DNA from: Sabellastarte sp. h YS-2021
Lineage: Eukaryota; Annelida; Polychaeta; Sabellida; Sabellidae
NCBI GenBank assembly: GCA_964017235.1
Contig: OZ024936.1
Span: 52,999,028 to 53,063,027 of the forward strand
Length of the DNA stretch: 64,000 nucleotides
Direction of reading: 5' to 3'
This document shows, piece after piece, positions 6,929 through 55,628 of this stretch. The first letter of the stretch is position 1; each line of letters begins with the position of its first letter. Below the pieces are notes generated by a model. That model worked only from the letters and a program-made list of their open reading frames with translations, was not told the DNA's origin and ran no database searches. Both the position numbers and the translations under genes were made by a program.

Positions 6929-7323
6929 ATTCTATGGCTAACACCGGCTTGCTTAGGCGTGAAGCCGAAATGACTCTATTGCATCCCCAGCTAGGGGAAA
7001 CGAGACGCCAAGAACTTAGGAACTCGTCCTTCTGGGACTCCTCCTTGTTCGAGTCTCAACTTGTTAAGGAAGGTGAGGACTTCCTTCTCAAAAAAGGCAC
7101 CTCAAAAGATTCTCAGGGTTTTGCACCCTACCAGAATAAGCCCTTTCGTGGCCCCCACAAGAAAAGAGGCTCCTACAGGAAACGCCCCTATGGGGGCAAT
7201 TCCTCTCAAAGCAGTAACCAATCCTTTCCCTCGGGAAGAGGAAAATCCAACTTCAGAGACTCCAGGGGTCGTTTTCGACCCCACAATAGGGGAAGGGGGC
7301 GTGGAAACCCCCCTTCACAATGA
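6929..7323 (+). pseudogene. DIRS gag-like ORF, 3' part
   Basis: Continues the gag-like ORF after the family A insertion, in the same frame as the codons ending at 3192. It begins YSMANTGLLRREAE and ends in an Arg/Gly/Ser-rich basic tail (RGRFRPHNRGRGRG) typical of nucleic-acid-binding gag C-termini. It overlaps the RT ORF in another frame by about 260 bp, as in other DIRS elements. Confidence 0.8.
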
Positions 7324-9238
7324 CTCCTCCAAAGCCTCATTCAGTCCACCAGTAGGAAGTCGCCTCCGTTCTTTCAAGAGAGACTGGCTAACAAACAAAT
7401 GTTCTCAAAACGTGTTAAACATTATCACCAATGGCTACGTTCTGCCATTCCGTTCAAAGCCAAACTTGATCAGATTTCCTCTGATTCTATCAGAGTACAA
7501 GGCCCAACAAAAAGACCAAGCCTTGGCCACTTGTATCCAGTCTCTCTTGTCAAAGAACGCCATCGAAAGGGTGGAAAACGTAAAATCTCTCGGGTTTTAC
7601 AGTCGCCTGTTCCTAGTACCCAAGCCTCACCAAAGGTGGAGGCCAGTCATAGACTTAAGCAGGCTCAACACTTTCCTACATGTAGAAAAGTTCAAAATGG
7701 AAACCCCGGAGTCCATCAGGACTTCCCTGGTCCCAGGGGAGTGGGTATCGTCGATAGACCTGTCGGACGCATACCTTCACATCCCCATCCATCCAAGCTC
7801 AAGGAAGTACCTAAGGTTTTGCTACAAGGCCCAGGTGTTCCAGTTCACCTCCCTACCTTTCGAACTGGCCACAGCCCCCCAGGTCTTTACGATGATCGTA
7901 AAGGAAGTGAAACTAATGGCCCTCTCAAGAGGACTCAGAATTCACCAATACCTGGACGACTGGCTGATCAGGTCCCAGTCCCAGGAGGAATCTCAAAGGG
8001 ACACACAGGCAGTGGTAGACCTAACCCAATCCTTGGGTTGGATAATCAACCAGGAAAAATCAGAACTGAAACCTACTCAGGTGTTTTCGTTCGTGGGCTA
8101 CGAATACCACCTAGATTCAGCCCTTGTAAGACCCACTCACGAGAGATGGCTCAAACTCCAGGATTTGATCCTACGACTCAAGTCAAAACGTGTTTTGACT
8201 GCAAGATGTTTGATGTCTCTAATTGGGTTGCTAGCCTCAACGGAGAAAATGGTCCCGGAGGTACGCCTTCACATGAGGCCCTTTCAGTTTCATCTCAAGG
8301 AGCACTGGAGATATCCTCAGTCGCTGGACAACCTCCTTCCTTGGACAGAAGCCATTGTAGCCCACCTAGATTGGTGGCAAAACCCCTCAAATGTGATGAA
8401 AGGCGCAGACCTTCATCCCAAGGACCACAGTATCCAACTCTTTACCGACGCCTCAAATGAAGGTTGGGGCGCTCACTTAGATCAAAATTCTACAAAAGGG
8501 CTGTGGTCAGAGCGGGAAAGAAGGCTACACATAAATGTCCTAGAATTGAAGGCGGTCTCCCTGGCCCTTCGAGACTTCAAGGACCAGTGCCAGAATCAAA
8601 CAGTGTTAGTTGCGACGGACAACTCAACAGTGGTAGCCTACATCAACAAGCAAGGGGGAACTCACTCAGCAGAGATGTGCGCTCTCCTGTGGAAAATCAT
8701 GACCTGGTGCCATCACTACCATATAACATTGAAAGCCAGGCACATTCCAGGGTGTCTGAATGTGATGGCCGACCTCCTATCCAGGTCCAACCAAGTGCAG
8801 TCAACAGAATGGTCTCTGCACCCTCAGGTCTTCAAGCAAATCTGCCGAAAGTGGTTCACCCCTCATTTAGACTTATTCGCCACTCACCTGAATCACAAAC
8901 TCCCTCTATATGTGTCTCCTATCCCAGACCCAAGGGCCTGGAACATAGATGCTCTGAACATAAACTGGACCAACCTCACGGCCTACGCCTACCCTCCTAC
9001 GGCTCTCCTTCACAAGGTGATCCAAAAGATCAAGCAATGCCATTGCCTGATCATCGTGATAGCCCCAGGCTGGCCAGGGATGCCCTGGTTTTGGGACCTA
9101 GTGCAGCTCTCAACAGAGATCCCACTACAACTCCCAGTGTCAACGACCCTACTCAAACAGTCCCACAACTATGTGTTCCACAACAACCCACAACAGCTGA
9201 ACCTCCACGCCTGGTGTCTAGGAGCGGACAACTCCTAG
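7061..9238 (+). CDS. DIRS reverse transcriptase / RNase H
   Basis: An open frame of up to 725 codons. In order: RT fingers (SRLFLVPKPHQRWRPVIDLS), palm (SSIDLSDAYLHIPIHP), the active-site YLDDWLI block and the thumb, then RNase H (LFTDASNEGWGAHL, VLELKAVSLAL, ATDNSTVVAYINKQGG), then the conserved DIRS C-terminal region with HLDLFATHLNHK and APGWPGMPWF. YLDD rather than YMDD or YADD is normal for DIRS. The protein copies element RNA into DNA. The true start is uncertain because the ORF overlaps gag; the first Met gives 7061, but recognisable RT begins near 7380. The frame is intact despite breaks in its neighbours. No clear methyltransferase-like domain was identified. Confidence 0.92.
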   Translation: MLRKVRTSFSKKAPQKILRVLHPTRISPFVAPTRKEAPTGNAPMGAIPLKAVTNPFPREEENPTSETPGVVFDPTIGEGGVETPLHNDSSKASFSPPVGSRLRSFKRDWLTNKCSQNVLNIITNGYVLPFRSKPNLIRFPLILSEYKAQQKDQALATCIQSLLSKNAIERVENVKSLGFYSRLFLVPKPHQRWRPVIDLSRLNTFLHVEKFKMETPESIRTSLVPGEWVSSIDLSDAYLHIPIHPSSRKYLRFCYKAQVFQFTSLPFELATAPQVFTMIVKEVKLMALSRGLRIHQYLDDWLIRSQSQEESQRDTQAVVDLTQSLGWIINQEKSELKPTQVFSFVGYEYHLDSALVRPTHERWLKLQDLILRLKSKRVLTARCLMSLIGLLASTEKMVPEVRLHMRPFQFHLKEHWRYPQSLDNLLPWTEAIVAHLDWWQNPSNVMKGADLHPKDHSIQLFTDASNEGWGAHLDQNSTKGLWSERERRLHINVLELKAVSLALRDFKDQCQNQTVLVATDNSTVVAYINKQGGTHSAEMCALLWKIMTWCHHYHITLKARHIPGCLNVMADLLSRSNQVQSTEWSLHPQVFKQICRKWFTPHLDLFATHLNHKLPLYVSPIPDPRAWNIDALNINWTNLTAYAYPPTALLHKVIQKIKQCHCLIIVIAPGWPGMPWFWDLVQLSTEIPLQLPVSTTLLKQSHNYVFHNNPQQLNLHAWCLGADNS

Positions 9239-10381
9239 AACAAGGCTTCTCTGTGGAGGTGGCAGAGAGAATTGCTGCCCCTCAGCGGTCATCAACAAGG
9301 ACCATCTACAGGTCAAAGTGGGCCCTATTTGAAAAATGGTGCAGAGAAAATTCGGTGGATTTCTCCACTCCCATCTGTGAAACAAATCTGAGATTTTTTC
9401 ATGTACCTGTACCAAGACCTAAACAGGCGCCCCTCGACCATTGATGGCTACAGGACTGCTATCGTTGACACTCTGGGCCCAACGGCCCAACACATTGCGC
9501 ACAATGCAGACCTTCATAGGTTACTCTCCAGTTTTCACAGGGATCGTCCTAAAAGTTCCAGAAATTTACCCAAGTGGAACCTTTCTGTTGTCCTTAACGA
9601 GCTCACCAAAGCACCATTTGAGCCCATGAAAGACTCAGACCTCAAACATCTTACTCTTAAAACTGCTTTCTTGCTAGCCTTGGCCTCCGGCAAGCGCCGC
9701 AGCGAAATCCATGCCTGGGTCGCTAACAAAGTAGCTAATTTAGGCCAATGGGAAAAGGTAGCCTTGTTCCCTTCTTCTGATTTCATAGCCAAAAACCAAC
9801 TAGCAAGAGAAGGTTCTCAAAGTGTGTCACCAGTGACTATCCCTGCTTTGACTACCATTGTAGATAGACAGTTTAAGGAAGACAGGACCCTGTGTCCCGT
9901 GCGGGCCCTGAGGTTTTATTTGGACCGAACTAAAGACCTGAGAGGGTCTCGTTCTCTCCTTTTCATCTCCTTTAAGAAAGGACATACCTCAGACATCAGA
10001 CCCGCTACACTCTCCTCATGGTTGAAACAAACCATCCTACTTTGTTACAAACAAGCAGATCAACAAGCCTTGGACTTGGTCCAAGTCAAAGCGCATGACA
10101 TCCGGGCCTTCGCGGCCTCTAAGGCCTTTTACGGTGGAGTATCGGTGGACCAAATCATGCAAGCCTGTCACTGGAAAGCTCACAACACATTCACAAATTT
10201 TTACCTAAAAGACCTTACTTGGTCGGACACCGACAACAATATGTATCTGGGACCCGTAGTGGCAGCACAACAAGTCCTGGATCCTTCCCGTCAGACCAGT
10301 TGTCCTCGGAAAGAAAAAAAGGGGGGTGGGGGGGGCACATCCGCTACAACCAAGTCTTCAGGAGTCTCTCCCAGGATCTAG
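9232..10381 (+). pseudogene. DIRS tyrosine recombinase (one frameshift)
   Basis: The N-terminal SAM-like core-binding region (LLEQGFSVEVAERI, STRTIYRSKWALFEKWC) reads in a different frame from the catalytic part (from about 9401). The switch falls at a T-run near 9390-9396, so a 1-bp homopolymer indel is likely. The catalytic part shows the R-HxxR-Y set: ALASGKRRSEIHAW, then KAHDIRAFAASKAF, then HWKAHNTFTNFYL. This enzyme integrates the circular DIRS cDNA without target duplication. It overlaps or abuts the RT stop codon at 9238. The tail is Lys/Gly-rich. Confidence 0.88.
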
Positions 10382-23919: not shown

Positions 23920-24153
23920 AGGGCCACGGTGGCAGAGTGGTAACACTCTCGCCTCCCACCTCTGAGGCCGGGGTTCTATTCCCGGCATGGCCTCAAGTGG
24001 GAAAGCTGGTACTTTGCTTGCCATTCGTCGACAGTTTACAGTACAGAACCCTAACGAACTGTATGTACTGGTTTCCTCTGCCCTTCCAACTACCCGTCGT
24101 GATATGACCTGTACTGTGTTGAAAGCGACGTAAAACCTCAAATAAATAAATAA
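23920..24153 (+). repeat. tRNA-derived SINE type B, full-length, 14-bp TSD
   Basis: The head has A box TGGCAGAGTGGT and B box GGGGTTCTATTCCC, followed by a body with CTGTATGTACTGGTTTCCTC and CTGTACTGTGTTGAAAGCG, ending in an (AAAT)n tail. Target duplication CCATTACCTCACTG lies at 23906-23919 and 24154-24167. This is the best reference copy here. Confidence 0.95.
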
Positions 24154-24652
24154 CCATTACCTCACTGCTGTGTGATAAAATGTTATAGCTTAGGTTCTCT
24201 GTATAGAGAAGTTTTCAGTGTAAACTTGTAAACTGAAAACTAGTTATTTGAGTATGGGAGCTTTTGAGAAACAAATTCAAATTACTAAGTTCTGATGAAT
24301 AAGTTTGAATTTATCTTTCTTGGAAAAAGTCACGTGACCTCAAAAAAAAAAAAAGACATGTATTTCAGCTCTGGAGGTTTTTGACATTTAGCAGTAATTT
24401 ATTGCTGTGAAGTGCTTTGGATTATTGACAATATTAAAGTTAAGAAACTCAGGATAACAGTGATATATTTATTTGGAAAAAGGACTCACACAAGTGTACA
24501 TAATAATAATAATAATAAAAAAATTGTGCTTGGTTACTTTTTGAAAGAAAAAAACCTTGACAGATTCTATATGAAGGACACCAAATTGCTTTTTCTAAAC
24601 CTATTAACAAGACTTTGAAATTGATTAATTAGTGCTTTTGTGATACAGAATA

Positions 24653-25896
24653 ATGGCTGTCAACTTTGTACCACCAGTGTTCTTTAAAGCAAGAGATGTT
24701 GTGGACTTTAAAACACTGCATGAATTTGAAGTTTATGCAAGTGTTAAAGATAAACTAGGCCTAGAAAATGTTCTAGGTTGTCAGAGAATATGGGGACTTT
24801 GGAGAATTTATGTCAAATTAACTGAATGCAGAATTAAACTATTGACAAACAAACTAACAGGGACCAGTTAATTGACATTTTCAATGAAAACCCATTTAGG
24901 TCAGGTATTGTTTCCCCAGATGAAAAAGTGATCAAAATAACCATAAAGGACATACCTTTGTCTAAAGACAACAGTTGCATTGAAGTCTTTTTGCAGTCCC
25001 TGGGAATAGTATTAAATAAGCCAATACAGTACGGAAAAATCAGAAATCCAGATACCAAGGAATTAACTGAATGTTACTCAGGGGATAGGATATGTTACAC
25101 CAAACCTTTTGACAAAGATATTCAAAGAATAGCTTATATTGGCTCAAATAGGGCAAGGGTGTTCTATGAAGGTCAGACAGTGCTAAAAGTGGATATGATT
25201 TGTACAAATTGCTACTCAACAGACCATTTCAGATCAAAGTGCACTAGTCCTTCTGTTTGCAAAATGTGCTGCATGCCAGGACACAAACAAGGGGATGCTG
25301 CTTGCTATGCACCCAGGAGCACAGCTCACAAGAAAGTGACAGTCTTTCAGAGAAAAGATGATGTGTTAAGCAACCAATACCCTTGCTAAATTAAATGTCA
25401 TGGAATTGTTGCAAAATCCTCAGAGCATGCGTACAACTATGTGCAAGCAATCCAGAAAGGATGCCCAGAAATTGCTGCAAATATCAGAAATGCACCAACA
25501 GCTGTCTTAGCCAAGATTACAGCAAAACGACTTCCCTTTGACCACAAGTGGGAAACTCAGAAGGTATCTGTAATGTATGACATCTTATTTGAAAAATGCA
25601 AGCAAGTACCAGAATTCAAAAAAGAACTTGTTGACAGTAAAACAAATAAACTTGTTGAAGCAGTTCAGGGAGACTTCTTCTGGGGATCAGGCAAGAACAA
25701 AGAAGAGACTTTACACACTAAAACAAAATACTGGTTTGGGAAAAATCAAATGGGAATACTGTTGATGGACCTTCGTGAAACACTTCATGAAAAACATCAA
25801 CAAGGGAAGCCACGAAATACAAAAAACAAAAACTCCTCGCAACTGTCACACAGTCAGGGAAACCATCCATACATGACGGCTAGTGACTCAGAGTGA
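24653..25896 (+). pseudogene. LINE ORF1: zinc knuckles fused to NADAR/YbiA-like domain
   Basis: The N-terminal region (24653-25190) has no recognised motif and contains one frameshift near 24860. Two zinc knuckles follow at about 25200-25305: CTNCYSTDHFRSKC (CX2CX4HX4C) and CKMCCMPGHKQGDAAC. Directly after them comes a NADAR/YbiA-like domain, about 25352-25850: DDVLSNQYPC, SSEHAYNYVQAI, KLVEAVQGDFFWGSGKN and WFGKNQMGILLMDLRETL. One TAA (25387-25389) interrupts it in frame between QYPC and IKCHG, so this copy is dead. NADAR enzymes cleave N-glycosidic bonds, for example in riboflavin-pathway intermediates (YbiA) or ADP-ribosylated guanine. In LINEs ORF1p normally binds RNA, and the knuckles fit that role. 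The NADAR function here is unknown. ORF2 starts about 110 bp downstream. Confidence 0.82.
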
Positions 25897-26498
25897 TGAC
25901 TTTTTAAATGAATACCATTTTTTTGGATAAAATTAAAAGTAAATTAATATTTATTTAAATTTAGTGAATGATTTCAAGATAAATACACTATTAATTCAGT
26001 AAATCATGAAGAGTCTTAAGCTTGGAACACTAAACGTCCGAGGTCTGTGTAATCACAAAACCAGAAGAAAAACATTTTATTGGCTTAATGAATTAAACTT
26101 TGATATCATCTTTCTACAAGAAACATATTGTAAAAATAACTAAAAAATAAAGGTTGTATTGTACATGCAACTACAGATTCATCTCACAGTAGAGGTGTGT
26201 GTATTATGTTCAAAGAAAAATTAAATGTTGAAATTTTGAACTCTAAATGTTGTGATGATGGTAGAATACTCCTATTGAATGTAAAAATTCATGATGAAGT
26301 CTATTGTCTTACTAATATTTATGCTCCTAATTCTGAAATTGAGAGAAAAACAATTTTCACCACTGTTGAAAATTGGCTACAAAATCATTCAGTAAATGTT
26401 ACTCAAATTATCATTGGTGGTGATTTCAATTGTTGTTTGTTAGATAATGACAGAGAACCCAAAACACATTTAAGAGATGCCAGCAAAAAGGTATTACT

Positions 26499-26733
26499 TT
26501 TTTTATTTTATTTTGGGTTTTACGTCGCTTTCAACACTGTACAGGTCATATCACGACGGGTAGTTGGAAGGGCAGAGGAAACCAGTACATAGAGTTCGCT
26601 AGGGTTCTGTACTGTAAACTGCCGACCAACGGCAAGCAACTACCAGCTTTCCCATTTACGGCCATGACAGGGATCGAACCCTGGCCGCAGAGGTGGGAGG
26701 CGAGAGTGTTACCACTCTGCCACCGTGGCTCTG
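26499..26733 (-). repeat. SINE type B inserted in LINE ORF2, 12-bp TSD
   Basis: A full-length minus-strand copy of the 23920-24153 SINE. Target duplication AAAGGTATTACT lies at 26487-26498 and 26734-26745. It splits the endonuclease domain of the Tx1-like LINE. Confidence 0.93.
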
Positions 26734-27699
26734 AAAGGTATTACTCGATCTAATTAAAAAAATTTTACCCTGACAGATTGCTGGGAAGCAACTGCGAGGT
26801 CAAGCGATAAATTTACATTTGTAGATAAGAAGTTCAAAACTAAAAGTAGACTTGATTACATTTTCGCCAGTGAAAACATTAACAGGTAGGATTCTAAAGT
26901 TATTGTTCCGTTCGATACAAGTGTGATAGATCACAAACTTGTTATGACAGATGTAATTTTCAACCTGTGTACAAGGGGACCGAATTACTGGAAATTTAAT
27001 TCAGAATATATTTCAGATAAATTATATTGTGAAAATGTTAAAAAATTAATTGATCAGAAAGTTTTAGAATTGTCTAATGTACCAAATAGCCAAGACCTCT
27101 GGGAAACCTTAAAGTTAAAAATTAAAGAATATACCATTTATTTTGCATCAAAGAAAACCATAGCTAGACACTCAGTAATCCAGGCTTTACAAGAACAAAT
27201 AAATGGCTTAACCTCACATGATTACTCTCAAAATTTACTGAAGTTAACAAATCTTAAAAGTAAGCTAAATGAGTTATTGGAAAAAATAACTAGTGGCAGT
27301 TTTATCAGATCTAAAGCTGAATAGTGCGAAAAGGGAGAAAAATGTAACCAATTCTTTCTTAATTTGGAATCACAGAGACAGAGTAATAATGTAATCAAGT
27401 TTTTAAAATGCAAAGATGGACATTTTGTTCAAAATGAAAATGAAATCTTGAAAGAAATTGCTTCATATTATGAAAATTTGTTTTCGCGCAAAAGTATCAG
27501 CAGCAAAAACACTGAACAATATTTGTCTTAAGTAAAGGTGGCTAAACATTTGACAGATAAGGATAAATGTTTTTGTGATAAACCTATAACACAGGATGAG
27601 GTTGAAACCGCAATAATGCATCTAAAGACATCTAAATCACCTGGATTGGATGGATTAACGCCTGAATTTTACAAATATTTTTGGCCTACCCTAATGCCC

Positions 27700-28410
27700 T
27701 TGTTCCACCAAAGGATTAAGCCCCGATCCTGTCTGCGACCCTTAATCGTGGGTAGTCTTGGAAAAAATGGAAAAAAAATTGACCAATGGGGTGGAAGACA
27801 GAATCGGTGTGAAGGTCTGGGATTAACTACAGATCGGCCTCAGGACGCCCCAGGAGGCTCCAGACAGTCCCTAACTGGTCTGGGACTAAGAACAGACTAA
27901 GCCATTTTTCTGGTCGGTTTGAACCACGATCCTGTCGTAGACAAACCGACTGGGTCCCAGGACGCCTCAGGCCTCCTGGGACTAAGCCCCGACTAACCCA
28001 GGATTAAGTCCCGACCCCACAAGGTGTCCTGAGGCGTCCCCAGGCGTCCCCAGACCGAGATAGCCGATTTTTGCTTTGCAATGGGACTAAGGGTCGCAGG
28101 AAGCCTGGGACTAAGGTATAGAGGGTCTGGGACTAAGGGTCGGCGACTAAGGGTCACAGGCGGCCTGGGACAGCATAGGACTGTGTAAATTTGGTCTGAG
28201 GAGGCCTGAGGAAGCCTGGGACTGGACATTTTGTTTATGGCGGGAAAAAATAATCGGTTGGGGTCGGGAGAAATATCAAACATGTTTGATTTCTCACACG
28301 GCCTCAACCGACCACAACCGACCCTTACAGGAAGCCTGGGACTAAGCATATTTTTGAAACCGACCCTCAAAAACCCTTAATCGGGAGCCTTAGTCGTGTG
28401 GTGGAACACC
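27700..28410. mobile_element. TIR element (MITE-like) in LINE RT domain
   Basis: The left end TGTTCCACCAAAGGATTAAG resembles the inverted right end (GTGTTCCACCACACGACTAAG). The interior reiterates CTGGGACTAAG/GGTCGG words on both strands and holds the palindrome-like AAATATCAAACATGTTTGAT (about 28271-28290). It splits RT between FWPTLMP and FFNMINDTF. I could not fix the target duplication. Confidence 0.7.
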
Positions 28411-29091
28411 CACATTAAACAACCATTTTTTAATATGATTAATGACACATTTCTGCTAGGGTATTTGCCCGATTCCCTTAAAACAGCAGTCGTTACACTG
28501 TTGTATAAAAAAGATAAAAAAGATTACCTTAAAAATTACAGACCAATAAGCCTGACAAATTACGATTACAAAATTATAGCCTTTGTGTTGACTGCTAGAC
28601 TGCAAAAGGTTATAGATGATATAATATCAAAAAGTCAAACTGCCTATATAAAATCAAGATTTATTGGGAGTAACATGAAAGTAATTTGTGACTTAATTGA
28701 TTATTGTGAAAAATTTCAAGCTTCAGGTATATTATTAAGTTTAGACTTTGAAAAAGCCTTTGATACTATTAATTGGGATTTTATGTACAGGTGTTTAAAA
28801 AAATTTAACTTTGGGAATAACTTTATCAACTAGATTAAAATACTATATTGTGATCCAAAAATTGTTGTAAAAAATAATGGGTATTTATCAAGGCAAATTA
28901 AAATAGAACAAGGGTTAAGACAGGGATGTCCTGTATCAGCAATTCTTTTTATACTATGTATTAAAATTCTGGCACTAAATATTGACCAAAATAAAAACAT
29001 TAAAGGATTTGTTTTTGGTGACACTGAATTAAAAATAAGTCAGTATGCAGACGATTCAACACTACTTTTAAAAGATTTCTTATCATTGGAA

Positions 29092-31200
29092 TCTAATCTA
29101 ATCTACCGCTTTGCAAGCGCAATATCTTCCCCACAGAGGGGAACTCAATGCGCTAATTAATCACAATAATTTTCCTAAGGAGAGTCAAGGGGCGTTCAAG
29201 GTCAATGATCCAGGATTATGGGTATGGCCGGGAGGGAAGAAAACTAAGTTGGGAAACTAGAGCTGAAGAGGTGGGTTTTGAGGTGCTTCCTAAAAGATGG
29301 AACAGAGGGGCTGTTTCTAACATGAAAGGGGAAAGAGTTCCAAAGGACAGGGGCATAGTGACAGAATGAATTAGAGAAGTGTTTGATTGATTTGTGAACT
29401 CTACGATCAAAATTGGGGGTTTGAAGGAACTTGAGTTTGGGGGAACTTCGCCTTGTATTTCTAGAAGAGGTGTACGGGTGGATTAATTGTCTTAGATAAA
29501 CTGGTTGACCTTGGTTGAGAATTTTGTATGTAATAAGGCCAATTTTAAATTGTACCCTGTATCTGACTGGTAACCAGTGAAGTTTTTTTAGTTGAGGGGT
29601 AATGTGAGAGAATTTAGAGGAACGGGTGACAACCCTGCAGAGTGAGTTTTGGACTAGCTGCAATCTCCTTAACTCAAAATTAGTGAGCGATAAGAACAAT
29701 GAATTGCAATAGTCCAACCTGCTGCTCACCAAAGCATTTGCCAAGAGAACTGATGTGTTGAGGTCTAGGAGGGGACGAATTGAAATTGGAGTCGAACACT
29801 ACTCCAAGGTTCCTGACACTTTGTGCTGGTGAGACCTGATTTCCTAGAATACTGATGGGGAAATGAGGGAGGAGTTGTTTACGATTTTTATGGGAGCCTA
29901 TGAGAATAAACTCGGTTTTGTCTGGGTTAAGTTTTAATTTATTTGTAAACATGAAATTTTGAATGTCATTTAGGCAGTTCTTTAGTTTTTGGATAGAGTG
30001 AGAGAAATTTGCTGGTGAAAGTGATATGTATAACTGGGTGTCATCTGCGTAGAAGTGATAATCAATGCTACTGTGGGAGTGAATGATTGAGCTGATAGGG
30101 TTAGTATAGAGAGAGAACAGAATTGGTCCAAGGACAGAACCCTGGGGAACTCCATACTGGAGCAAAGCTGGATGGGAGAGTGTACTACCTATCTTGACCG
30201 AATGTGTCCTTCCTGACAGGTATGATCTGAACCAGCCAAGTGCTAGCTCACTGATTCCATAATAAACATTGAGCGTGTCTAGGAGAATGGTGTGGTCAAT
30301 GGTATCGAAAGCGGCGGATAGATCGAGAAGGGTAAGAGCAGTGACAGACCCTTTGGCCATATTAAGAAGAATATCGTTATGAATATTGAGGAGAGCGCTT
30401 TCAGTAGAATGGTGTTTTCTATAAGCGGATTGGAAGGCAGTCAAAAGGCCGGCTTCATCAAGATGTGTTTGTAGCTGGACGGCTACTACCCTTTCAAGTA
30501 TCTTTGAGATAAAGTTTAAATTTGAGACAGGCCTATAATTTTTAAAAACTTCTTTGTCTAAGGATGATTTTTTGAGAAGTGGGGTAACATGGGCCTGCTT
30601 AAAGAAATCTGGACACTTGCCTTGATTAAGAGAAGCATTAATTATTGAAGTGATGGGGGAAATGAGAATATCGAGATAATCCAGAACAAGGAAAGTGGGC
30701 CATGGGTCTAGGGAACATGATTTACTAGGAGAGCTGGTAATAATTTTAGTAGCTTCTTCCTCTGTTACAGTAGAAAAACTGGGGAACATGGGGGGAGGAG
30801 AGTCAGGGGTGATGTGCTGTAAATTGACAGAAGCAGAGAATGTTGAGCGTATTTTTTCAATCTTTTCTGTGAAGAACTCCACGAACCTGTCAGCCAAAAG
30901 CTGAGGTGGGTTTATCGATGGGAGGATCTTAGCTGGAAGTCTGTGTAGGACATCACCCAGGACACGCCATAATTTTGTGGGTTGTGATGATTATCCTGAA
31001 TTTTTTCTTTAAGGAATTGGGATTTGGCCTGCATGCAGACTCTATTATATTGGTGAACCTTCTGCATGTACTGGGATCTATTGAAAGTAGATCTATTTCT
31101 TCGCCAAATGCGTTCAAACAAATGCTTAGTCTCCTTTGCCACAATTACAGTATCATTCACCCATCCCGGGATGTACTTGGCCTTGGTGTGTTTGGTGTGT
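29092..31200 (-). mobile_element. 5'-truncated L2/CR1-like LINE, 7-bp TSD
   Basis: Inserted on the minus strand into the Tx1-like LINE. ATTGGAA occurs at 29085-29091 and 31201-31207, and removing the element with one repeat rejoins the host ORF as LSLE-EALKT. The 3' end carries a short TTAGA-type microsatellite tail (TAGATTAGATTAGA on the minus strand), as in L2/CR1 elements. The endonuclease is missing (5' truncation). Confidence 0.92.
29244..30897 (-). pseudogene. L2/CR1-like reverse transcriptase
   Basis: Minus-strand RT with KSCSLDPWPTFLV, FKNYRPVSNLNFISKILE, TLLDLSAAFDTIDHTILLD, QYGVPQGSVLGPILFSLY and YHFYADDTQLYISLS (YADD active site), then PDKTEFILIG and SVRNLGVVFDSNF. A frameshift near 29760-29790 moves the C-terminal part to another frame: ALVSSRLDYCNSLF, KLHWLPVRYRVQFKI and SFRKHLKTHLFSSSFP. 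Upstream minus-strand sequence to 31214 (QYNRVCMQAKSQFLKEK) is the linker between endonuclease and RT. Few lesions, so it is younger than the relic at 13-15 kb. Confidence 0.92.
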
Positions 31201-33050
31201 ATTGGAAGAAGCACTAAAAACTGTATCTACATTTTCAGACTTTGCAGGTCCTAAACTTAATCTTCAAAAAACAGAAGGATTACTGTTAGGACCCTTAAAA
31301 TATAGTAGTATTAAAAGCTACAACAATATAGAATTTAAAGATAGCCCAATTAAATGTCTCGGAATTTATATAGGACATGACAAGGAAAAGTGTGAAGAAT
31401 CAAACTGGGATTCTAAAATACATAAAATGGAAAGTATACTGAAACTTTGGGAAAAACGAAACTTGGCTATATTTGGTAAAGTAACAATTGTAAATACTTT
31501 ATGCCTTCCAAAAGTAATGTACAATTGTATGTTATTAGTTGTTCCGGAAAGAGTTGTTGTCAAAATAGAAAAGATGATTTCTCACTTTATATGGCATGGA
31601 AAGAATAGAATAAATCGCAATTGTGTTACAAATTCTATTGAAAATGGTGGACTTAATCTTGTGGACGTAAGATTAAAAATAAAATCTCTCAAGGCAGGAT
31701 GGATAAATAGATGGATGAAAACCCCACTTTGGGCTGTAATTGCTGAATCATTTTTAAAAGCAATAGGTGTAAACTTCAATTTCTTGTTAAGAATGAATAT
31801 TAAAAACAACAATGACTTACCAGTAATGAAATCCATGCCACCTTTTTATCAAGATGTATGGATGTCATACTTCTCTTGCAAAACATATAAACCAATAACT
31901 AAGATGACTGACTATGATTTCCTAACAAGTTCAATATGGGGAAGCAACATTTTCAAATTAAATAATCAGTGTATATTTTCAAAAAATTTAATTTCCAGCA
32001 ATATTATATTTGTAAAGGATCTTTTTGATGAAAATGGCAAATTTATACATGAACACGTATTTATGAATATCATTGATGACAAAAGAAATTGGATGGAGGA
32101 ATATTTAACACTTAAAAAGTGGTAATGACTAAAGCCAAAAAATTTAATATTTCTCTTTCAAAATTCATCAAAAATTGCAATCTCAGAAAAAGGATCCTAT
32201 TTTTTTATGGAAAAAACTTGGTTGATTTAGAAAATGAAAAAAGTAAAATGTTTTACAAAATTTTGATCAAAAAAATTCTACAAGGCATTACATGGAAAGG
32301 GTGTGGGAAACAAAATTCAATCAGACCTACAATTCATCAGAAAGGTCAAACATCTATTCAAGAATGGTCAAATCTGTACCATGTAAAAAATTAAGTGAAT
32401 TTAAGTATAAATTACTTCATAATTTGATTTACCCTGGATATATACTTAACAAATGGAAACCATCAGTCTCAAGTCATTGTTCATTTTGTCATGAGACAGA
32501 AACTTTGGAACACTTACTTTTCAAGTGTGAAAGAATCAATGATGTGTGGAATACAGTGGGTCAGGTTATTAGAGTTAACATAAAATGGAAACATTTAGTG
32601 ATAGGTTTAGATGAAAGATATTCAGAAATCATGAATAAAGCAAAAAATATGATCATTACCATTGTAGTTTACTCAATTTTTACTGGATGGGTTAAGTGTG
32701 GTGAGTCAAAAGAGAGTTTTAAGTACATAAACATTTGGAATAATGCACTGTCAAAATTAAATTTATACTTGAAAATTTTCTCAGAATTTGTACACAAAAT
32801 TGTTATGGTATAGTAAATTTAATAAACTGATAGAGGAACTTGGAAAAATGTAAAATTGAATTTATATGATCTGAATTGTAGAAAATGTTTCTATCTTGTA
32901 ACATCTTTGTTTTTTACTGTATTTCATACTGTGTATGAAGATTTGTTGTAAGCCCCTGATGAAGGGTTCGCTACCCTCGCCCTTCCAGGGAGCAATATAA
33001 ATATTGTACAAAAAGGGTAAATAAAAGATATATATTGAAAAAAAAAAAAA

Positions 33051-34080
33051 TCTTTCTTTTTATTTAAGATAAGCTTGACTTCAAAACTTTTTTTTTAATT
33101 ATCTGGAATTACATTAATCAAAATATAATTATAAATTATAAAAATTATTTTTGGGTGCATCAGTTTTGTTGTTGAGATAAATTAATAAGGAGAATGGATA
33201 AAAATGTACAAGTGCATGCACACATAGTCTTTATCATCTTTATAATCTTAAGTCTAAAAATTCGTCTTTGCTTTAGAAATACCTACAAATTCAAAAACTA
33301 TTGCAATAATAGTTCTGTCAAAAAGTTAGACTTAATCACTATATCTCCCTCTAGAAAAAGAATTTTCAATCAACGATCACTAGTCATTCATTTCCCAACA
33401 TTCAACCTGTTTTCTGTTCAATAACGTGACTAACATTTCATGTCTGAAAACCTAACTTGATTTAGTGTTGATTTTTGTATGAAGTATCAATAATTTTTCC
33501 AATCAGAAATCCAGCTTTGAAATAGTGTTGAAATTTTGTCAGTGTCATTTTTTCAACCCAAAATCACCATGATTACTGGTCAAAATATCATTACTTTTTC
33601 ATGTCAGCAAACTAACTTAGCTTTAATAGTTGATAATGCAGATTTCAACATCAGGACCTGTTTTCAACTCTAAATCAATGACATTTCAAGGCGTGTGCCT
33701 GCTGGCCAGGACTCCTGTTTGCTGAAAATAAGAAAAAACACAAAAAAAAGTAATGAAGACATTGTCATGCCTGTACAATTAATACTTTTGAACCATTAAT
33801 TTGAATATTAATTTAAAATTGTCCAAAAACGTAAGTTTCAATTAAAGAATTCTTGTCATTCATTAAACATTAACCATAAACCTTAACCACTCTATTTTTT
33901 GTGTAATTTCTTCATTTTACGTGACAGGTCAGTTATGTTTTTTCAAAAAAAATCTCAAATGTCAAAATTCAATTTATGTTATTGCATTTCCAATGGGAGA
34001 TGCTAGTTTCTGTGCTCGTAGGTGACAAGCCTAAACTTGTTGAACATATTTGCGGGACTTTGTTGTTATGACAAAAAGGC
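33051..34080. other. Transposon arm and intergenic DNA
   Basis: Up to 33705 this is the right arm of the large TIR element (GTTGAAAT/TTCAAC-rich). From 33706 to the E2F promoter I see no gene. It includes AT-rich direct words such as TTAATTTGAATATTAATTT. Confidence 0.5.
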
Positions 34081-37900: not shown

Positions 37901-40900
37901 CACTCAATAGTTGTTAACCATATATTATATTGTCGCCCGGTTGGTCATGTTTTTCAGAATGACAAAACATGACAACTCTGCATAATGTCAGAATTCTTCG
38001 TATATTGGGACATTTTATGTAATACTCCCCATTTCATAACAATATAATAAGTTTTGATTACCTATCACCGCTATTTTAATGCAAAGACATCCTTTCCGGA
38101 AACTGCCGTTTTGTTTATGGAGAGGAAAAAATGTGTATAGTAAAACATGCGAATACCGAAGTGCGACACAAATTTGGGTAGCTCAGGTACAGGGTTGGAT
38201 TTTAACCACTCGTTGCAGCCTTAATTTATACTCAGTGCAATATCTCCGTGTACTACAGCACTTGGAGGGTTATTGTTCTATCCTGACTGTATAAGTACTG
38301 CCTAAGCAGTCTAGTGCCTGATATTCCCCTAACTGAAAGATATAAGCTCATGGATGACCATGTATTAACTTCCCCGAGGTTCTTCTATCAGTTACTGTTG
38401 ATGGAACCCAATAACAGAGGACTGTCATGTTAAGTAGTCATCCAAGTCACTATCTGACTAGACTGGGATTTAATCGCATGTCCTCTGTGTTCTTGGGTGA
38501 GTGTGTTACTACTAGGCCACAGTGGAAGGCTATATATGAACATAACCTTCATTACTACAACTACTATTACAATTACTACAAGTGGAATTCCTTTTTATGT
38601 AACTGTAGGTAAAAGGTTATTCGAGGGCACTTAAAGTAACACTAAAATTGTGTGAAGTTTCTGCTTGACTGAAAGTATTTTTCTGATCCCTCAAGTTTCA
38701 GGTCAACAGAGATTGCATGTTCTTTCAGGTAGTTGATCTGAATAAAGCAGCAGAGTTGTTGGATGTCCAAAAACGACGGATCTATGACATCACCAATGTG
38801 TTAGAGGGCATAAATCTCATCTCAAAGAAGTCCAAGAATAACATAGAATGGAAGTAAGTTAGGTCAATGTCTGTTTACAAAAGTTGAGGTAGTGACTTGG
38901 GATGTATTATGGGTGTAAACAGAAAATTGGATTCCTCAGTTTTCATTTGGGTGCAAGACTCGTGTAAACAACCATTTTCACTCGATTGTCAGTTTAAAAA
39001 AAAAAACAATTGTCAAATTAAAGCAATGCAAAAAAAGACATGAACAATATGTTTTTGGGGTTTTACGTCGCTTTCAACACTGTACAGGTCATATCACAAC
39101 GGGTAGTTGGAAGGGCAGAGGAAACCAGTACATACAGTTCGTTAGGGTTCTGTACTGTAAACTGCCGACCAACGGTAAGCAACCTCCAGCTTTCCCACTT
39201 GAGGCCGTGCTGGGGATCGAACCCCGGCCTCAGAGGTGGGAGGCGAGAGTGTTACCACTCTGCCACCGTGGCCCCCACATGAACAATATAACCAAAATAT
39301 AAACTTAATACTTTTTACAAACTTCTCCTTCACTCCATACCGTACGTGATGCATGCACGCTTGTGATTCACTGATTTTATGATTACTAAGGCTGTGACTT
39401 CGTTAGAAAAATGACACTGGGTGTTTGTCTCGCAAGAACCAATCTGAATTCGGGTAACCATCTTTTAGTTGTCACTCAGTGGAAGTAGCAGAGAAGCAAC
39501 ATGGCGGATGATGTAAACAAAACGTTATGAAAAATAATGTTAAATATCTGTATAAATAAGGAAAATTATGTGAAAAAGTATTAGTGGTTAGAGAAACCTG
39601 ACGGGATATTGAGGTTTACCCAAGTTTTTCATTGTGTTACAGTATGTTTAATATTTTTTTGGTTACTTGATTCGCCACTTTGTACTCGGTTTCTTACAGA
39701 CTTCGAACCATTTTCGGGTAACCGGGTAACCTATCGCAGCCTTGATGATTACCTGTGTTGAAATACTGTGGGAAAACCCCAAGGTATATTCTAGGGCTGC
39801 AAACGGTTACTTGAACCTCGATAGATAAGTTGGTCTTTGCTAGGACTTGAGTCCATTTTAACTAATAGGTTACTTGCAAAGTATTATATTATTGCCCGTG
39901 TAATGAAGGTAGTGGTTTTCACTTAAAATCGTATAATTTAGTCCATATTCTATACAGTGTATGAACTACCTTACGAAACCAGATGGCCAGCAGGGCCATT
40001 AACTTTTCATTTTTGATGGCCCGTATGAAATGTAAATAGCCCAATAAAATTAAATTTAAATCTCTTTATTTTCTGTAATAATTACCATTTTTTAAACAAT
40101 CATCAAGTGGTTTAGAAATCAGATAGGAAATAAAATAAACATAGAAAAATAGTTTTGCCAAATTTTTTAAAAAAAAAGGTCAAAGCAATTATCACTGCTC
40201 TGGACTAAAGGACCATGCAATGTATTTATCAAATTTATGCCCTGAAAATTTTGAGCTAGCTTTGTGCCTTATTTTTAAAGCAAGTGGGCCACAGACAGAA
40301 CGACAAGGTCTGCAATAATTTTTTTTTCAACATTCAGGGGGTTCAGGGGGTTCGAACTCCCCCCCCCTTGAAAAATAATGTTAAGGGGTTCAACCCAAAG
40401 TACAAAATTATTTCTTGAGAGTGGTGTTAAATTTACTGGAAATGCACTGTATTTTTACCAAAAATTAATTTTTTCCCAGGAAGGCATGCCCCCAACCCCC
40501 TTAGTTATGGTATGTCTGATGTGAACCCCCACCTTACTCTGATATGACCTCTCCCCCCCCCCCCCCCCCCCCCTACTTAAAAGCTGGATCCGCCCGTCAG
40601 AAAATATATATTTTTCAACATTACTGCAGAGTACATGTACTCAGTACATAAAGTCAGTACCACTACTGATCAAAAATTAAACATTGTTATATTGCCCAAC
40701 TCCTACAAAAAACGAAGAAATCTTTAAAACAAAATCACACATCTCTTGACTTTGCTTTCAAAGGCTACATATTTATAAAAATCTTATTTCCAAATCTTTA
40801 AAAACGAAGATATCCCACGTACCAGTGTGTTTTCATTCAAAACGTTACCATCAGAAAGCGGAAATCCAGTGAAGTTCTCTCGATTATAAAACGTTTCGAG

Positions 40901-49900: not shown

Positions 49901-52900
49901 TGAGAGTGATCTACGGGTGCTTTGTAGTTTGTGCTGTCTAGTAACTCGCCAACTCAAGTTTCCTATTGGGTTTGACAACTCTTAAATTTTGTCATATTGC
50001 CAAGTTATTTCAAAGCATAAATGGAATCATTCGAAAAGAATATGTAAATAAAGCAGTAACTGTACACAACTATCCAATAAAGGCACGGTTTGACTTGTTT
50101 ATAAAATTTTTTTTCTTCAAGTTTACCTCTTACGAACCTAGACCAATGATTTCCCTACATACAAAATGTGTCTTAAACCTGTCTAGTTTAAAACCTCACC
50201 TGGTTTAAAAAACAATCAAAATTCCCATTTTATTTATCAACATGGTGGTGCCCTTGATCATTTTGTAGGTGAGTATGACGAGATTTGTTGAAAAATGGTC
50301 AAAACTGTTGAGTTTGTTATGAAAAGAGTTATATGTGTGCGTAGGGTTTGGTGTGCAGCATCTTTGTAGTTGATGTTGTCAAAATTAGTGATGGGTCGGT
50401 AGGTGCGGTATCGAGAGCATTTTACTGAAATACCGTTATGAGATTTTACAACCGGCACTTCGCTTGTTAGCCCGTATAATGGAAGGAAGAGTTAAAATAT
50501 TAGAAACATACTCAAAATATGAAGAAATTATAAGCTTTTCTCCCCAATTTTCATGTATTTGCAGACTTTATACAGTACTTGCGATTACGGTGAGCAGAAC
50601 TGCCATGTTTTCGTTATACAATTTATAACCTCAATTTTACTTGTCAGCTTATATAACTGAAGGAAAACTTAAAATATTGGGAACAAACAAAATCTGAGAA
50701 AAAATATATTCTTTTATCTCCTTTTTCGCACATTTGGTCACTTTTATTGTGATGTCGTGAAGAGGAAACGTCCATTTTTGTTTGGGGAGTACTAAAACGC
50801 AGAATCCCCGAATTGATACGGTTTTGCATTGGCGACCTCCCGATTAGTGGTGGGATCGCCAGCTTAAATGCCAGATCGAGTATCACTTGTTAGAAGCGAG
50901 TTGAACTCGAGTTAAACTCGAGTAATTTTCGGGATAAAGTATTTTGTTCGTTAGCTTTTAATATAGAAAATATTTACATAACCGGACGCGAGACAAAACT
51001 TTTACCTGAAAATGACTTTCGCAATATAATTTACGTTAAATGTTCATTGATTTAAGCCAGAATAAAGTAAAAATGCAATATATTTTTGAAAATTTCGGAT
51101 ATTTCTGTTGTTTTGGTGAAGTGTCGGCTGTAGATGGTTGAAATATTGGCGTTTTTCAAAAACTCGAGTTTCACTTGCGCAGATCGATGTCGCCCAATTA
51201 TCGCCCATCGAGTTACAACTCGAGTTTCAGTCAACTCGTCCCAGCACTACTCCCGATGTACATATTTTTCATACCGACCCATCCCTAGTTAAAATTAAAT
51301 ATCCTTTGCAAAGGTTAAAGTTGTGACAACATCTAACAAAGAATTAAAAGATGTTTAGGCCAGTTTAAAATGGAGTCTATCACAGTAAATTTAAAACCAA
51401 AAAAAAAAACCCCAGAAAACTAGTATCATCAAAAGTAAAATAAAGCTATTGAAAATACTGTGAAAGTTGGTATGCACAAATATTTGGAATTTAACATAAT
51501 ATGAGTTTAAATTTGACAGTGTGTTCAGACTATATTGGTTTCAATGTGATCCCTCTTTATCATTTAATTTTCTTTATACATTTCATAGAAATCAGTGGAT
51601 TGAAGTTCAAGGAAGATTATGTGGATCAGATGATCGAAACCTGCACACAACAACTACGATTGCTCACTGAGGACGCTCAGAATTCCAAATATCCTTTTCT
51701 TTTTTGTTGCAACAGATACAAATATCGACATAAAATAAAAATGTTCTTGCCTCACATCAATTGTGTGTACACAAAATGGTGGAAGCGAGCAAGAAGGAAC
51801 AAATGCTGAATGTGACTATGTAGGTCACCTCGCCACTGTTGGAGCCACCTAGCATACGGCTGGGTTGTTTTCTTTTGTTGCCCAGGCCACATGTGGCCAC
51901 CCAAGAATAGCACTTAGTCCCAGCTGGTAAGCTTGTAGTTCATAAAAGCTACACTTTAATCAATTAAATTTTTTTTTCCCCAACAGATTTAACACAACAA
52001 TCTAAATCAGACCTTTTTTCAGATTGAATATGGCATTGTTTCTCTCCGAGTAATAATTAAGCGTCCCTTGAAAAGGGGACGCTTATTGGTTTCACCCCCG
52101 GTTTTCAGTCAGCCGCCGCCGCCGCATTATCGTCTCCCTTGAATATCTCCCTTGTTATTAGGCCTATCCAAATGATATGTGGCAGTGTTCTTCTGTAGGC
52201 GTGGGGGAATTTTTTGACAGGCATAAATTTAACCTTTGACCTTTATCAAGGTCACATTATCAAAAATTCAAAAAAAAATTTACTTCCTTTTCACTAGATT
52301 TCCTCAGAAAGTACTGGGTGTGGGTCAACCAAATTTGGTATGCACATTCCTGAGGGAAGAATCTAGGCGCCAGTCGATATTGGGATCAATCAGGCCATAA
52401 TTGACCGATTGACGGGTGATTGATTATAAGTTCATAAAAATTTTGCTAAGATTAAGCCTTGAACTCGCTTATTATTGATAGTAGAGGTTTGGGATGGTAT
52501 ACCAACATATAGGAAATCATGTGCTGGGAATCTTCTGGTGTGGTCAGATTTGACCTTGGGCCCCTCGTTCAAGGTCAAGCAAGGATAGGCAAAGTTTAAA
52601 GTGCTTATAACTCGCTTATTATTGGTCCTAGAGGTTTGGGATGGTATACCAACATATAGGAAACCATGGGCTGGGAATCTTTTGGTGTGGTCAGATTTGA
52701 CCTTGGACGTCTCCTTCAAGGTTAAACGGGGATAGCCAAACTGGAAAGTGCTTATAACTCGCTTATTATTAGTCCTAGAGGTTTGGGATGGTATATCAAC
52801 ATATAGGAAATCATGTGCTGGGAATCTTCTGGTGTGGTCGCATTTGACCTTGGGCCCCCCCTTCAAGGTCAGACGAGGATAGCCAAACTGAAAAGTGCTT

Positions 52901-55628
52901 ATAACTCGCTTATTATTGGTCCTAGAGGTTTGGGATGGTATACCAACATATAGGAAATCTTGGCCTGGGAATCTTCTGGTGTGGTCGGATTTGACCTTGG
53001 GCCCCTCGTTCAAGGTCAAAAGAGCATAGCCAAACTTAAAAGTGCTTATAACTCGCTTATTATTGGTCCTACAGGTTTGTAATGGTATACCAACATATAG
53101 GAAATCATGTGCTGGGAATCTTCTGGTGTGGTCGCATTTGAGCTTGGGCCCCCCCTTCAAGGTCAAACGAGGATAGCCAAACTGAAAAGTGCTTATAACT
53201 CGCTTATTATTGGTCCTAGAGGTTTGGGATGGTATACCAACATATAGGAAATCATGTGCTGGGAATCTTCTGGTGTGGTCAGATTTGATCTTAGGCCTCT
53301 CCTTCAAGGTCCAATGAGGATAGGAACTTTAAAGTGCTTATAACTCATTTATTATTGGTCCTAGAGGTTTGGGATGGTATACCTACATATAGAAAATGAT
53401 GGGCTTGAAATCTTTTGATGTGGTCAGATTTGACCTTGGGCCTCTCCTTCAAGGTAAAACAAGCATAGCCAAACTTTAAAGTGCTTCTTCTTCTTTGCAG
53501 CTGAAAACACACAGTCAGCTGATACAGAACCCGTTCATAGGCACTGAGTGTTTTTTTCGTTTTAAGGTCACTCTTGTGATCCTAACATGGTCCTTTTCAT
53601 GAACATTTCTCTTCACCAATAACATTTACCTCTTCACATTAGTCCTTTAGCATTTTATATAAAACTTAAAAGCTGTAGGGACGCTTTGTTTTTGTGTACA
53701 AAAACTTTTGTCTAGTTAAAGCTGAAACAGTCAACCGTACTAACCGATTATTAGGTGACCAAGGCACTAGTCGACGTCATTATTCTTGAACCCGTGAACT
53801 GTTTTCCACCTTATATGGTAATTTACGAGATTGTTAGATTCCTTAATATTTGGAGTCACAATTGAAAATGGTAGCAATTCAAAGTATTTTATCTATTTAT
53901 TACGTTAAATATAAAAATTATATGCAGTTTATTTGCAAATTACGTGATAATTTGAATGAATTGTCTTTCCAGGCGACTCTAGATCCGCCATATTTGTTTA
54001 CAATATTTACATCCTGGGTGCATGCAAAGATGTCGATTTCGATATTTCCTCTCTCTCCACAGGTACTATATATCGGAAACAGTTAGCTGATTAGTTGATG
54101 GTTAATGCAAGACACTACCTGGCTAGAAAATATTGCTAATCGTTTTAGCCTTAGTAATAATAAATACCAGTGAGCATAATTTGTCTGGTGTAGGGACAAG
54201 ATTGTGTCACCTGTGTCACAGAATCAAAACCATTTTACTGAAATACCAAAACAAAATCTTTTGATTGGCATGTTGATTTCCCAGCAAATAAAATGGTTGG
54301 AAAACATAAAATATCACCAATGTATAATATGTCTGAAGAAAGTTTAAAGTTTCAATTGCATTGACTTGTACATCGTTTAGAGATGTGGGGGTATGTATGA
54401 ATCAACGATGATTATTGTAACATACTAATCATACTAGTGGTGGGATCGCCAGCTTAAATGGCAGATCGAGCATCGCTTGTTAGAAGCGAGTTGAACTCAA
54501 GTTAAACTCGAGTAATTTTCGGGATAAAGTATTTCGTTTGTTAGCCATAATATGGAAAATATTTTACATAACCGTACATGAGGCAAAACTTTGACCTGGT
54601 TTCGCGATATAATTTAAGTTAAATCTTCATTGATTTAAGCCAGAATAAAGTAAAAATGCAATATATTTGTGAAAATTTCAGATATTTCTATTGTTTTGGT
54701 GAAGTGTCAGCCTTAGATGGTGAAAATATTGACGTTTTCAAAAACTCGAGTTTCACTTGCGCAGATCGATGTCACCCCCAATTATCGCCCAGCACTAGTA
54801 TGATCCTCCTTCAACCCAGGATGAGATTTTCAATAAGATTATAACAATGATGAGACTCCCTTTTTTCCTCAGAATAATACATGATTCACTTGATTAAATC
54901 TTCCTTGACTGCTGTGTTAACGCTTGCATATGTCACATACCAAGACATCCGTAGCATAAGTAGTTTTGAAGAGCAAACTGTGATAGCCATCAAAGCACCT
55001 CCTGAGACAAGACTGGAAGTCCCTGACCCAACTGATGTGAGTTTTGTTTATGGGGTTTCAAAATATTATTCTTTGAAATCTTTATCAAATAATACAAGTC
55101 AGTGATTGTAACTCTAAAAATTATTACACACATTGAAAACAAAATTAGAAAAAGCTACCCACATAGCTATGGTTTGACAATAATTTTATGAAAGTACTTG
55201 AGAATTAATGCCGTTTAAATAAACAGCTTGTTGTAAGTCAATATCCACATGTTTGATGACAGGTAGAAAATCTGCTGCTTGATACCCGTCATTTAATAAA
55301 AGCCAATTCAGATTTTAAATTTTGATGACCTGTTAAGAGTATTGATTCTAAATTCTCAATTGGACAAAAAAAATAAAAAATACTTGCAGTTAAAGCTAAA
55401 GTTGGTAAATTTATTATTAGAGTAAGAAATCTAAAATTCGCCAGGAATCTAAAATTCGCCACCTGTAAAACTTTAGTTAATTTTATGAAGAAAATGATGT
55501 TTTTGTCCAAAAATTGGTATTTTTCAGTTCAAAAAGCCTTAATTTACTATACAGTCAACAAATCTCGCCTCAATTCATTTATTATATCCCCAGACGAAAG
55601 TCGGGGATATATTGGATTCAGGTCCGTC

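Follow-up and report, generated by a model that had tools for sequence, protein, structure and literature searches.

The locus described here raises a question that is simple to state: why should a LINE retrotransposon carry, within its first open reading frame, a domain of the NADAR family, and does that domain do anything there? The locus lies in a stretch of 64,000 nucleotides from the annelid Sabellastarte sp. (contig OZ024936.1, positions 52,999,028 to 53,063,027 of the forward strand), which will be called the window throughout; coordinates given without further label are positions within it.

The element in question is a LINE of the L1 group on the plus strand, running from about 24322 to 33049, full-length and broken. 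That it is one full-length but dead copy follows from its 5' and 3' ends, the nine-base repeat that flanks it, its split ORF1 and its interrupted ORF2. The 5' end was placed at about 24322-24328 by comparison with family copies (the alignments of L002, L004, L008 and L030 begin at 24326-24328), and with the 5' UTR it occupies 24322..24652 (+), while the 3' UTR and A-rich tail occupy 32811..33049 (+). Immediately outside these limits lie the two copies of a target-site-like direct repeat, atctttctt at 24313..24321 and again at 33050..33058, and both a target-site duplication and an A-rich 3' end are thereby present in this element (one copy). ORF1 starts at 24653 and has to be read in three pieces: the first (24653..24868, +), where L002 has an open frame for the same protein, holds the N-terminal domain ahead of a frame shift near 24860; the second frame (24838..25386, +) supplies the remainder of the N-terminal domain, two zinc knuckles and the start of the NADAR domain; and the third (25390-25896), which follows an in-frame TAA stop lying within the NADAR domain (25387..25389, +), contains most of that domain. 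An initial annotation of this DNA, made from its letters, had put a NADAR domain inside ORF1; the position holds, but ORF1 itself is not open, owing to the frame shift and the stop. The two CCHC knuckles directly ahead of NADAR, also proposed there, are indeed found at 25201..25242 (+; CTNCYSTDHFRSKC) and 25258..25305 (+; CKMCCMPGHKQGDAAC). Both are read from the sequence; the second in addition gives a weak match to zf-CCHC_4 (0.019, below cut-off), and a profile of the ORF1 design to which the window belongs (type A, see below) matches Gag nucleocapsid knuckles in the PDB with E = 5e-4.

ORF2 (26006..32810, +), comprising an APE-type endonuclease, a reverse transcriptase and a zf-RVT domain, is broken and interrupted, and was traced by tblastn with the open ORF2 of a related element (L096) as well as by Pfam. 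The endonuclease match is weak (Exo_endo_phos, 0.0014, below cut-off), those to the reverse transcriptase are above cut-off (RVT_1, 3.2e-16 and 6.6e-8), and zf-RVT is found at 32247-32810 with 3.3e-8; an endonuclease and reverse transcriptase downstream of ORF1, on the same strand and in the layout of a LINE, had been expected from the initial annotation and are there. Three nested insertions split the frame. One is SINE-like (26499..26732, −; family copies end at 26498/26499 and restart at 26733), a second spans 27685..28410 (ends approximate; the L030 alignment runs to 27684 and the ORF2 match restarts at 28411), and the third is a piece of another LINE (29077..31210, −; ends approximate, the ORF2 match restarting at 31211) with an RVT_1 match of 3.9e-33 within 29680-30987 on the minus strand. 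This second LINE, inserted in the ORF2 of the NADAR-bearing one, has a 436-aa reverse transcriptase frame at 29244-30990 (−). The SINE-like repeat occurs three times in the window (23921-24153, 26499-26732 and 39053-39276), and the three copies have in common 31 identical bases that are tRNA-like in appearance; ARAGORN, with bacterial settings, reported no tRNA gene in the window. Other repeats in the window include a DIRS-like element at 6995-10381 (+), with a reverse transcriptase and RNase H (RVT_1, 1.1e-16) and, in its next ORF, a weak match to a tyrosine recombinase (0.0054, below cut-off). There is also a 298-aa frame at 52432-53328 (−), in repeated DNA matched several times by the flank of L005, for which the Pfam matches are weak and below cut-off.

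The NADAR domain spans 25336..25785 (+) and is split by the stop already mentioned. The signature words noticed in the letters were confirmed by the profile search that had been suggested for them: PF08719 matches the piece 25390-25893 with E = 7e-23 (82.1 bits; the cut-off is 35.1). Among PDB entries the piece matches YbiA (2b3w, 4.8e-7), and an AlphaFold2 model of 25390-25893, built with viral-contig and bacterial rows in the alignment, is mainly helical, with a mean pLDDT of 88, a pTM of 0.76 and pLDDT blocks of 91-98 up to residue 130. The same Pfam profile scores 77-169 bits in 10/10 proteins checked.

Whether the fusion belongs to the element or only to this copy can be judged from the rest of the genome, a 1.786 Gb assembly in 647 contigs, for which each search gave the best 150 places. 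With the window's domain as query, the best 150 places (window included) all have E < 1e-18, and in 47 of them the frame runs for at least 380 aa without interruption; open copies of the window family itself are L002, L004 and L005, with ORF1 frames of 417-418 aa. When the part of ORF1 upstream of NADAR was used instead, a NADAR row lay no more than 2.5 kb downstream in 103 of the best 150 places, and among the other 47 four were sampled, all of which have the domain (three of them frame-shifted). ORF1 of the window type lacking NADAR was thus not seen at any of the 107 places judged (103 by coordinates, 4 by sequence) among these best 150, so that the observation which was to have told against the fusion, namely copies of this LINE without the domain, did not materialise. 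A further type-A family is represented by L266 (1-1488; C18:75786380-75788100), which has a 496-aa open frame with a long C-terminal tail; frames of the same length (495-496 aa) occur at four further places among the best 150 N-terminal matches.

A search of the genome with PF08719 gave a best 150 rows that are all above cut-off. Stand-alone NADARs, with frames of 167-179 aa, make up the first 38. The other 112 score 143.9-156.8 bits, far above the window's domain, and the 15 of these that were fetched (L075-L089) all proved to be LINE-type ORF1 proteins, of a second design. The stand-alone gene (L031-L060) has a canonical active site; the copies compared have long flanks in common (more than 3 kb for several) and tandem units of about 165 bases downstream, and the gene is apparently carried by a dispersed repeat or by an element of its own.

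There are, then, two designs of ORF1. Type A (the window, L002-L030, L061-L074 and L090) consists of an N-terminal domain, one or two CCHC knuckles, NADAR and often an acidic tail, and its profile finds YbiA, the P. nicotianae NADAR and the Gag knuckles in the PDB; the order of its domains is kept in eight further rows whose ORF1 identity to the window family is only 33-63%. Type B (L075-L089) has a coiled coil, followed by an L1-type RRM and C-terminal domain and then NADAR, and its profile matches both human LINE-1 ORF1p (2ykp, 1e-10, profile positions 80-229) and the P. nicotianae NADAR (5e-35).

The ORF2 partners are likewise of two kinds, and the two classifications do not run in parallel. 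An L1-group ORF2 is found with type A (L096 and L095) and with type B (L092 and L094). That of L096, a related CCHC/NADAR element, scores 341 bits against human ORF2p (residues 5-892 against 6-888), and that of L092 scores 304 bits; L092 and L096 are colinear with the human protein over some 880 residues covering endonuclease and reverse transcriptase, and are the ones to which L094 and L095 come closest. The available part of the window-family ORF2 (L002) scores 81 bits against human L1 ORF2p, and the reverse transcriptase piece of the window is 51% identical to L096, as against 24-25% to the CR1-like ORF2s considered next. In having an APE endonuclease and reverse transcriptase colinear with L1 ORF2p, these ORF2s belong with the L1 group (L1/Tx1). 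The endonucleases match PDB chain 2v0r (LTX), an L1 endonuclease onto which a Tx1 loop has been grafted and which is hence no guide to Tx1 membership.

A different ORF2 occurs in L091, L264 and L265, all of type B, which are 59-67% identical to one another in this ORF and 22-27% to the L1 group, with 77-91 bits against L1 for L091 and L264. The computed result is simply that they are not of the L1 group; the label CR1/Jockey-like is a provisional one, given on the strength of motifs. All three have a 2A-like NPGP motif (WDIELNPGP or WDIESNPGP) ahead of the endonuclease, and in L091 the open frame has no Met ahead of it. That the NADAR ORF1 and the CR1-like ORF2 form one element follows from their junction: a stretch of 1,100 bases (the last 56 of ORF1, the spacer and the first 359 of the ORF2 frame) is present at full length and 94-100% identity at 14 places, a count that includes the queried place, and 10 of these places lie next to a NADAR row from the PF08719 search. 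The same layout was found in two further families. One further stretch, L093, downstream of L077, in which no ORF reaches 90 aa, was left out.

Given two designs of ORF1, it is natural to ask whether NADAR was acquired once or more often. In a tree of 65 rows (18 type A, window included, 14 type B, one stand-alone NADAR, 18 from viral contigs and 14 bacterial), type A forms one group (support 100/98), and type A together with six viral-contig rows is split from all others (100/99). A single capture serving both designs was rejected by the AU test at p = 0.0104, for a group that was named after the tree had been seen. The 14 type-B rows are not a clade in the best tree, and such a clade was not rejected (AU p = 0.35). 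Since the NADARs of types A and B do not appear to form one clade (AU p = 0.010), the comparison points to at least two captures of NADAR by LINEs in this one genome. No donor is named: the viral-contig rows nearest to type A (L097-L103) are only 25-31% identical and sit on long branches, and the patterns by which the outgroups were found came from these very LINE and host domains and from their viral relatives. A bacterial donor for the type-A NADAR was considered and dropped, a contig scan with type-A patterns having given 19 stretches with no relative among them.

The state of the active site was compared in 31 aligned LINE rows (17 of type A and 14 of type B), using the numbering of the P. 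nicotianae NADAR (8bau_A, with an offset of two that was worked out here). These are representative rows, for which the families are not proven separate; both L002 and L004 of the window family are among them, near-copies (L005-L010, L014-L021, L023, L025, L028, L062, L071, L074 and L077) were left out, and L063, which is without E125, and L266, which was found later, also stand outside the count. The two glutamates E43 and E125 are present in 31/31 rows, window family included; W89 is present in 30/31, K50 and W133 each in 29/31, and the D130 position is Asp in 24, Glu in 6 and Gln in 1. In type A the Y84 loop residue is gapped in 16/17 rows, and the R79 position is K, S, A or R. In the window itself the alignments place the equivalent of E43 at 25423..25425 (+) and that of E125 at 25657..25659 (+), both kept, as are D130 and W133 (25672-25674 and 25681-25683, +). 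The position of K50 (25444..25446, +) is, according to the family alignment, a Gln (CAA). L063 (66-554) is a separate case, an open NADAR ORF1 with a frame of 418 aa in which E125 has apparently been lost and the C-terminus is divergent.

Loss of the lysine is a property of the window family and not of the broken copy. Both exceptions at K50 among the 31 rows are window-family members, and over the set L001-L030 the residue is Gln in 9/9 window-family copies as against Lys in 21/21 copies of sister families. Gln is also found in the type-A protein of L266 (496 aa), although L073, whose NADAR is 54% identical to that of L266, has Lys there, and on that account the change from Lys to Gln probably happened twice. 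In the NADAR of E. coli C7 the corresponding residue (K95) is essential for guanine de-ADP-ribosylation, Arg being able to substitute in vitro, and across the superfamily the lysine is described as largely but not wholly conserved (PMC11543638). Loss of this phosphate-gripping residue suggests that catalysis in the window family is weakened or altered, perhaps in favour of ADP-ribose binding or of some other substrate. As to E43, its equivalent in E. coli C7 is reported as essential in cells, while its change to Ala has a minor effect in vitro (PMC11543638), and for this reason conservation of E43 is not in itself proof of catalysis.

Selection can be assessed independently of any particular chemistry. 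Of 19 NADAR pairs, 12 have saturated dS and give no ratio; in six of the seven usable ones dN/dS (Nei-Gojobori) is 0.08-0.15, about equal to that of the rest of ORF1, and in the seventh (L073/L090) it is 0.35, while dS falls below 1 in only two usable pairs (L002/L004, 0.11, and L075/L077, 0.15). Within the window family non-synonymous changes are fewer than under neutrality in 5/5 pairs (p = 2e-5 to 0.004; these pairs share copies, so the tests are not independent), and from this it follows that the Gln form is kept by selection. The suggestion that NADAR had been captured by the ORF1 of this LINE is borne out by the presence of the fusion at many places in the genome, and capture for a function is well supported by the purifying selection together with the conservation of both active-site glutamates.

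What that function might be is a matter for analogy. The fusion hints that these LINEs undo a chemical mark on their own RNA or DNA, and reversal of nucleic-acid ADP-ribosylation, as first suggested for this locus, is plausible in view of the report that, among the hydrolase families tested, NADARs alone clear ADP-ribose from guanosine in RNA (PMC11833690); guanine-linked ADP-ribose in DNA is also cleared by them (PMC11543638). The reading that we regard as best, and to which we would give an even chance, is that the LINE NADAR is a hydrolase of ADP-ribosyl-guanine tethered to the ribonucleoprotein, and serves as a counter-defence. ORF1p would coat the LINE RNA, by its zinc knuckles in the window type or by the L1-type coiled coil and RRM in the second type, and would so bring NADAR onto the RNA and, in the nucleus, close to the newly made cDNA and to the nicked target DNA. 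There the domain would hydrolyse the bond between ADP-ribose and the amino group of guanine, and with the adducts removed neither translation nor reverse transcription would be stopped. The likeliest source of such adducts would be a host ADP-ribosyltransferase that modifies foreign nucleic acid, and it is this that would make the eraser a counter-defence. What the analysis shows is the fusion, its occurrence in several LINE families that differ in ORF1 (two kinds) and in ORF2 (two kinds), the retention of the glutamates, the purifying selection and the two or more captures indicated by the tree; the coating of the RNA, the enzymatic activity and its guanine specificity, the place of action and the host mark are what we infer from them.

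That the mark is a host defence goes a step further, and finds support by analogy in two quarters. The NADARs of animal RNA viruses have been read as aimed at host ADP-ribosylation (PMC9503650), and CARP-1, a guanine ADP-ribosyltransferase of shellfish, has been proposed to act either in innate defence against DNA viruses or as a regulator of NAD (PMC8053099). In its fullest form the proposal would be that the host ADP-ribosylates guanines of retroelement RNA or cDNA, that NADAR has repeatedly been captured as a counter-defence, and that the families without the lysine came later, for instance as decoys or binders; this version we hold tentatively, as possible though rather doubtful. If true, it would make guanine ADP-ribosylation an unrecognised innate defence against retrotransposons. 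Candidate writers were sought in the genome with Pfam profiles, ignoring introns. For Scabin/pierisin-like genes (PF22596) there were 0 matches, and 0/14 control genomes matched; for DarT (PF14487) there were 0 matches, and 1/14 control genomes matched. The ARTC family (PF01129) gave two places above the Pfam cut-off (0/14 control genomes matched), and we know of no nucleic-acid modification by these.

A first alternative is that NADAR serves routine processing or repair of the element's own RNA, removing stray adducts of ADP-ribose or by-products left by RNA repair, with no host defence involved, which resembles the guess already in print for the Ectocarpus and Crassostrea gigas elements (PMC12477816). 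It draws some strength from the nematode protein SNA-3, essential for trans-splicing, which has three NADARs and is impaired by changes to conserved residues in domain 2 or 3 (PMC9303266). Set against this, at least two captures by LINEs, together with those by RNA viruses and a Gypsy element, fit a conflict better, which is not decisive but leaves us thinking the routine role unlikely, if worth keeping in mind.

The loss of K50 bears on a second alternative, according to which NADAR is a binding or structural part of ORF1p, recognising nucleic acid or ADP-ribose, with catalysis dispensable. Gln in place of the lysine in the window family (9/9 copies examined) and in L266, with the window-family domain still constrained, speaks for such a role, and the window family may already consist of binders; a DNA groove has moreover been proposed for DarT1-linked NADARs (PMC11543638). 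Against it, E43 and E125 are retained in 31/31 aligned rows, the Gln-bearing window family among them, and we consider this role, too, rather unlikely.

Small molecules have also to be considered as substrates, whether ADP-ribose alarm derivatives or other N-glycosides such as riboflavin intermediates, since for phage NADARs such roles have been proposed, and for those of bacteria and plants shown (PMC9503650, PMC9303266). In both designs, however, NADAR belongs to a protein that also has nucleic-acid-binding parts, for which a tethered substrate is the better fit, so that small-molecule targets seem improbable. Finally, the idea of a chance neighbour or functionless passenger, for which only the broken state of the window copy speaks, has a negligible probability in the face of the order kept in eight further type-A rows at 33-63% identity, a dN/dS of about 0.1 and NADAR at 107/107 judged N-terminal places (of the best 150), and mere neighbourhood is ruled out by the genome copies, the N-terminal query and the dN/dS values together.

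The tethered hydrolase of ADP-ribosyl-guanine, to return to the preferred reading, would bring together two sets of enzymes that at present lack partners. NADARs are established as erasers of guanine ADP-ribosylation, and their eukaryotic substrates are still being sought, as are the targets of the CARP-1-type writers of shellfish. LINE NADARs make the link between eraser and writer directly testable, since LINE families keep the ORF1 NADAR under selection and more than one capture is indicated, and they direct the search for the mark towards retroelement RNA, cDNA or target DNA. They also offer many natural variants for assay, with and without the key lysine, and they extend the list of enzyme domains found on LINE ORF1 proteins by an ADP-ribose eraser.

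All this has to be set beside what is already in the literature. The fusion of NADAR to a LINE ORF1 is as such already described: a 2025 paper (Genome Biol, PMC12477816) notes briefly that several C. gigas LINEs of the Tx1 kind have NADAR in their ORF1, and places it also in the N-terminal part of Pol in one Ectocarpus Gypsy lineage. A full-text literature search found no further report of NADAR in retroelements; the main text of a mollusc transposon study makes no mention of NADAR (PMC10294476), and the words "retrotransposon", "transposon" and "retroelement" have 0 occurrences in the available text of PMC9503650. As far as was searched, the CR1-like carriers, the fusion to an L1-type ORF1, the two captures, the selection and the loss of the lysine are new.

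The closest likeness is to the C. gigas Tx1 LINEs, in which ORF1 also has a NADAR of the YbiA family (PMC12477816). With its L1-group ORF2 the window element may well be of the same kind, the comparison being one of descriptions; the brief account of the C. gigas elements, in the text available, does not say how ORF1 is built, in what state the active site is, whether selection acts, how many captures took place or whether there are CR1-like carriers. The Ectocarpus Gypsy lineage is similar in being a retroelement with a captured NADAR, but is an LTR element of a brown alga with the domain in Pol (PMC12477816). With the DarT1-associated NADAR antitoxins and YbiA the LINE domains share the profile family, the active-site glutamates and mostly the lysine (PMC11543638, PMC11125620, PMC11833690). 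They differ from these in being fused to a retroelement protein and, in the window family, in missing the lysine, and the DarT partner of a DarT1-NADAR toxin-antitoxin pair was not found by the PF14487 search, nor does a partner transferase adjoin NADAR in the LINE elements read. The NADARs in polyproteins of animal RNA viruses, like those studied here, were captured by an RNA-based selfish genome, but stand in a polyprotein with an RNA-dependent RNA polymerase (PMC9503650). The SGNH-esterase ORF1p of other non-LTR retrotransposons (PMC3905857), although the enzyme is unrelated, is a parallel in that it likewise has an enzyme domain on a LINE ORF1p.
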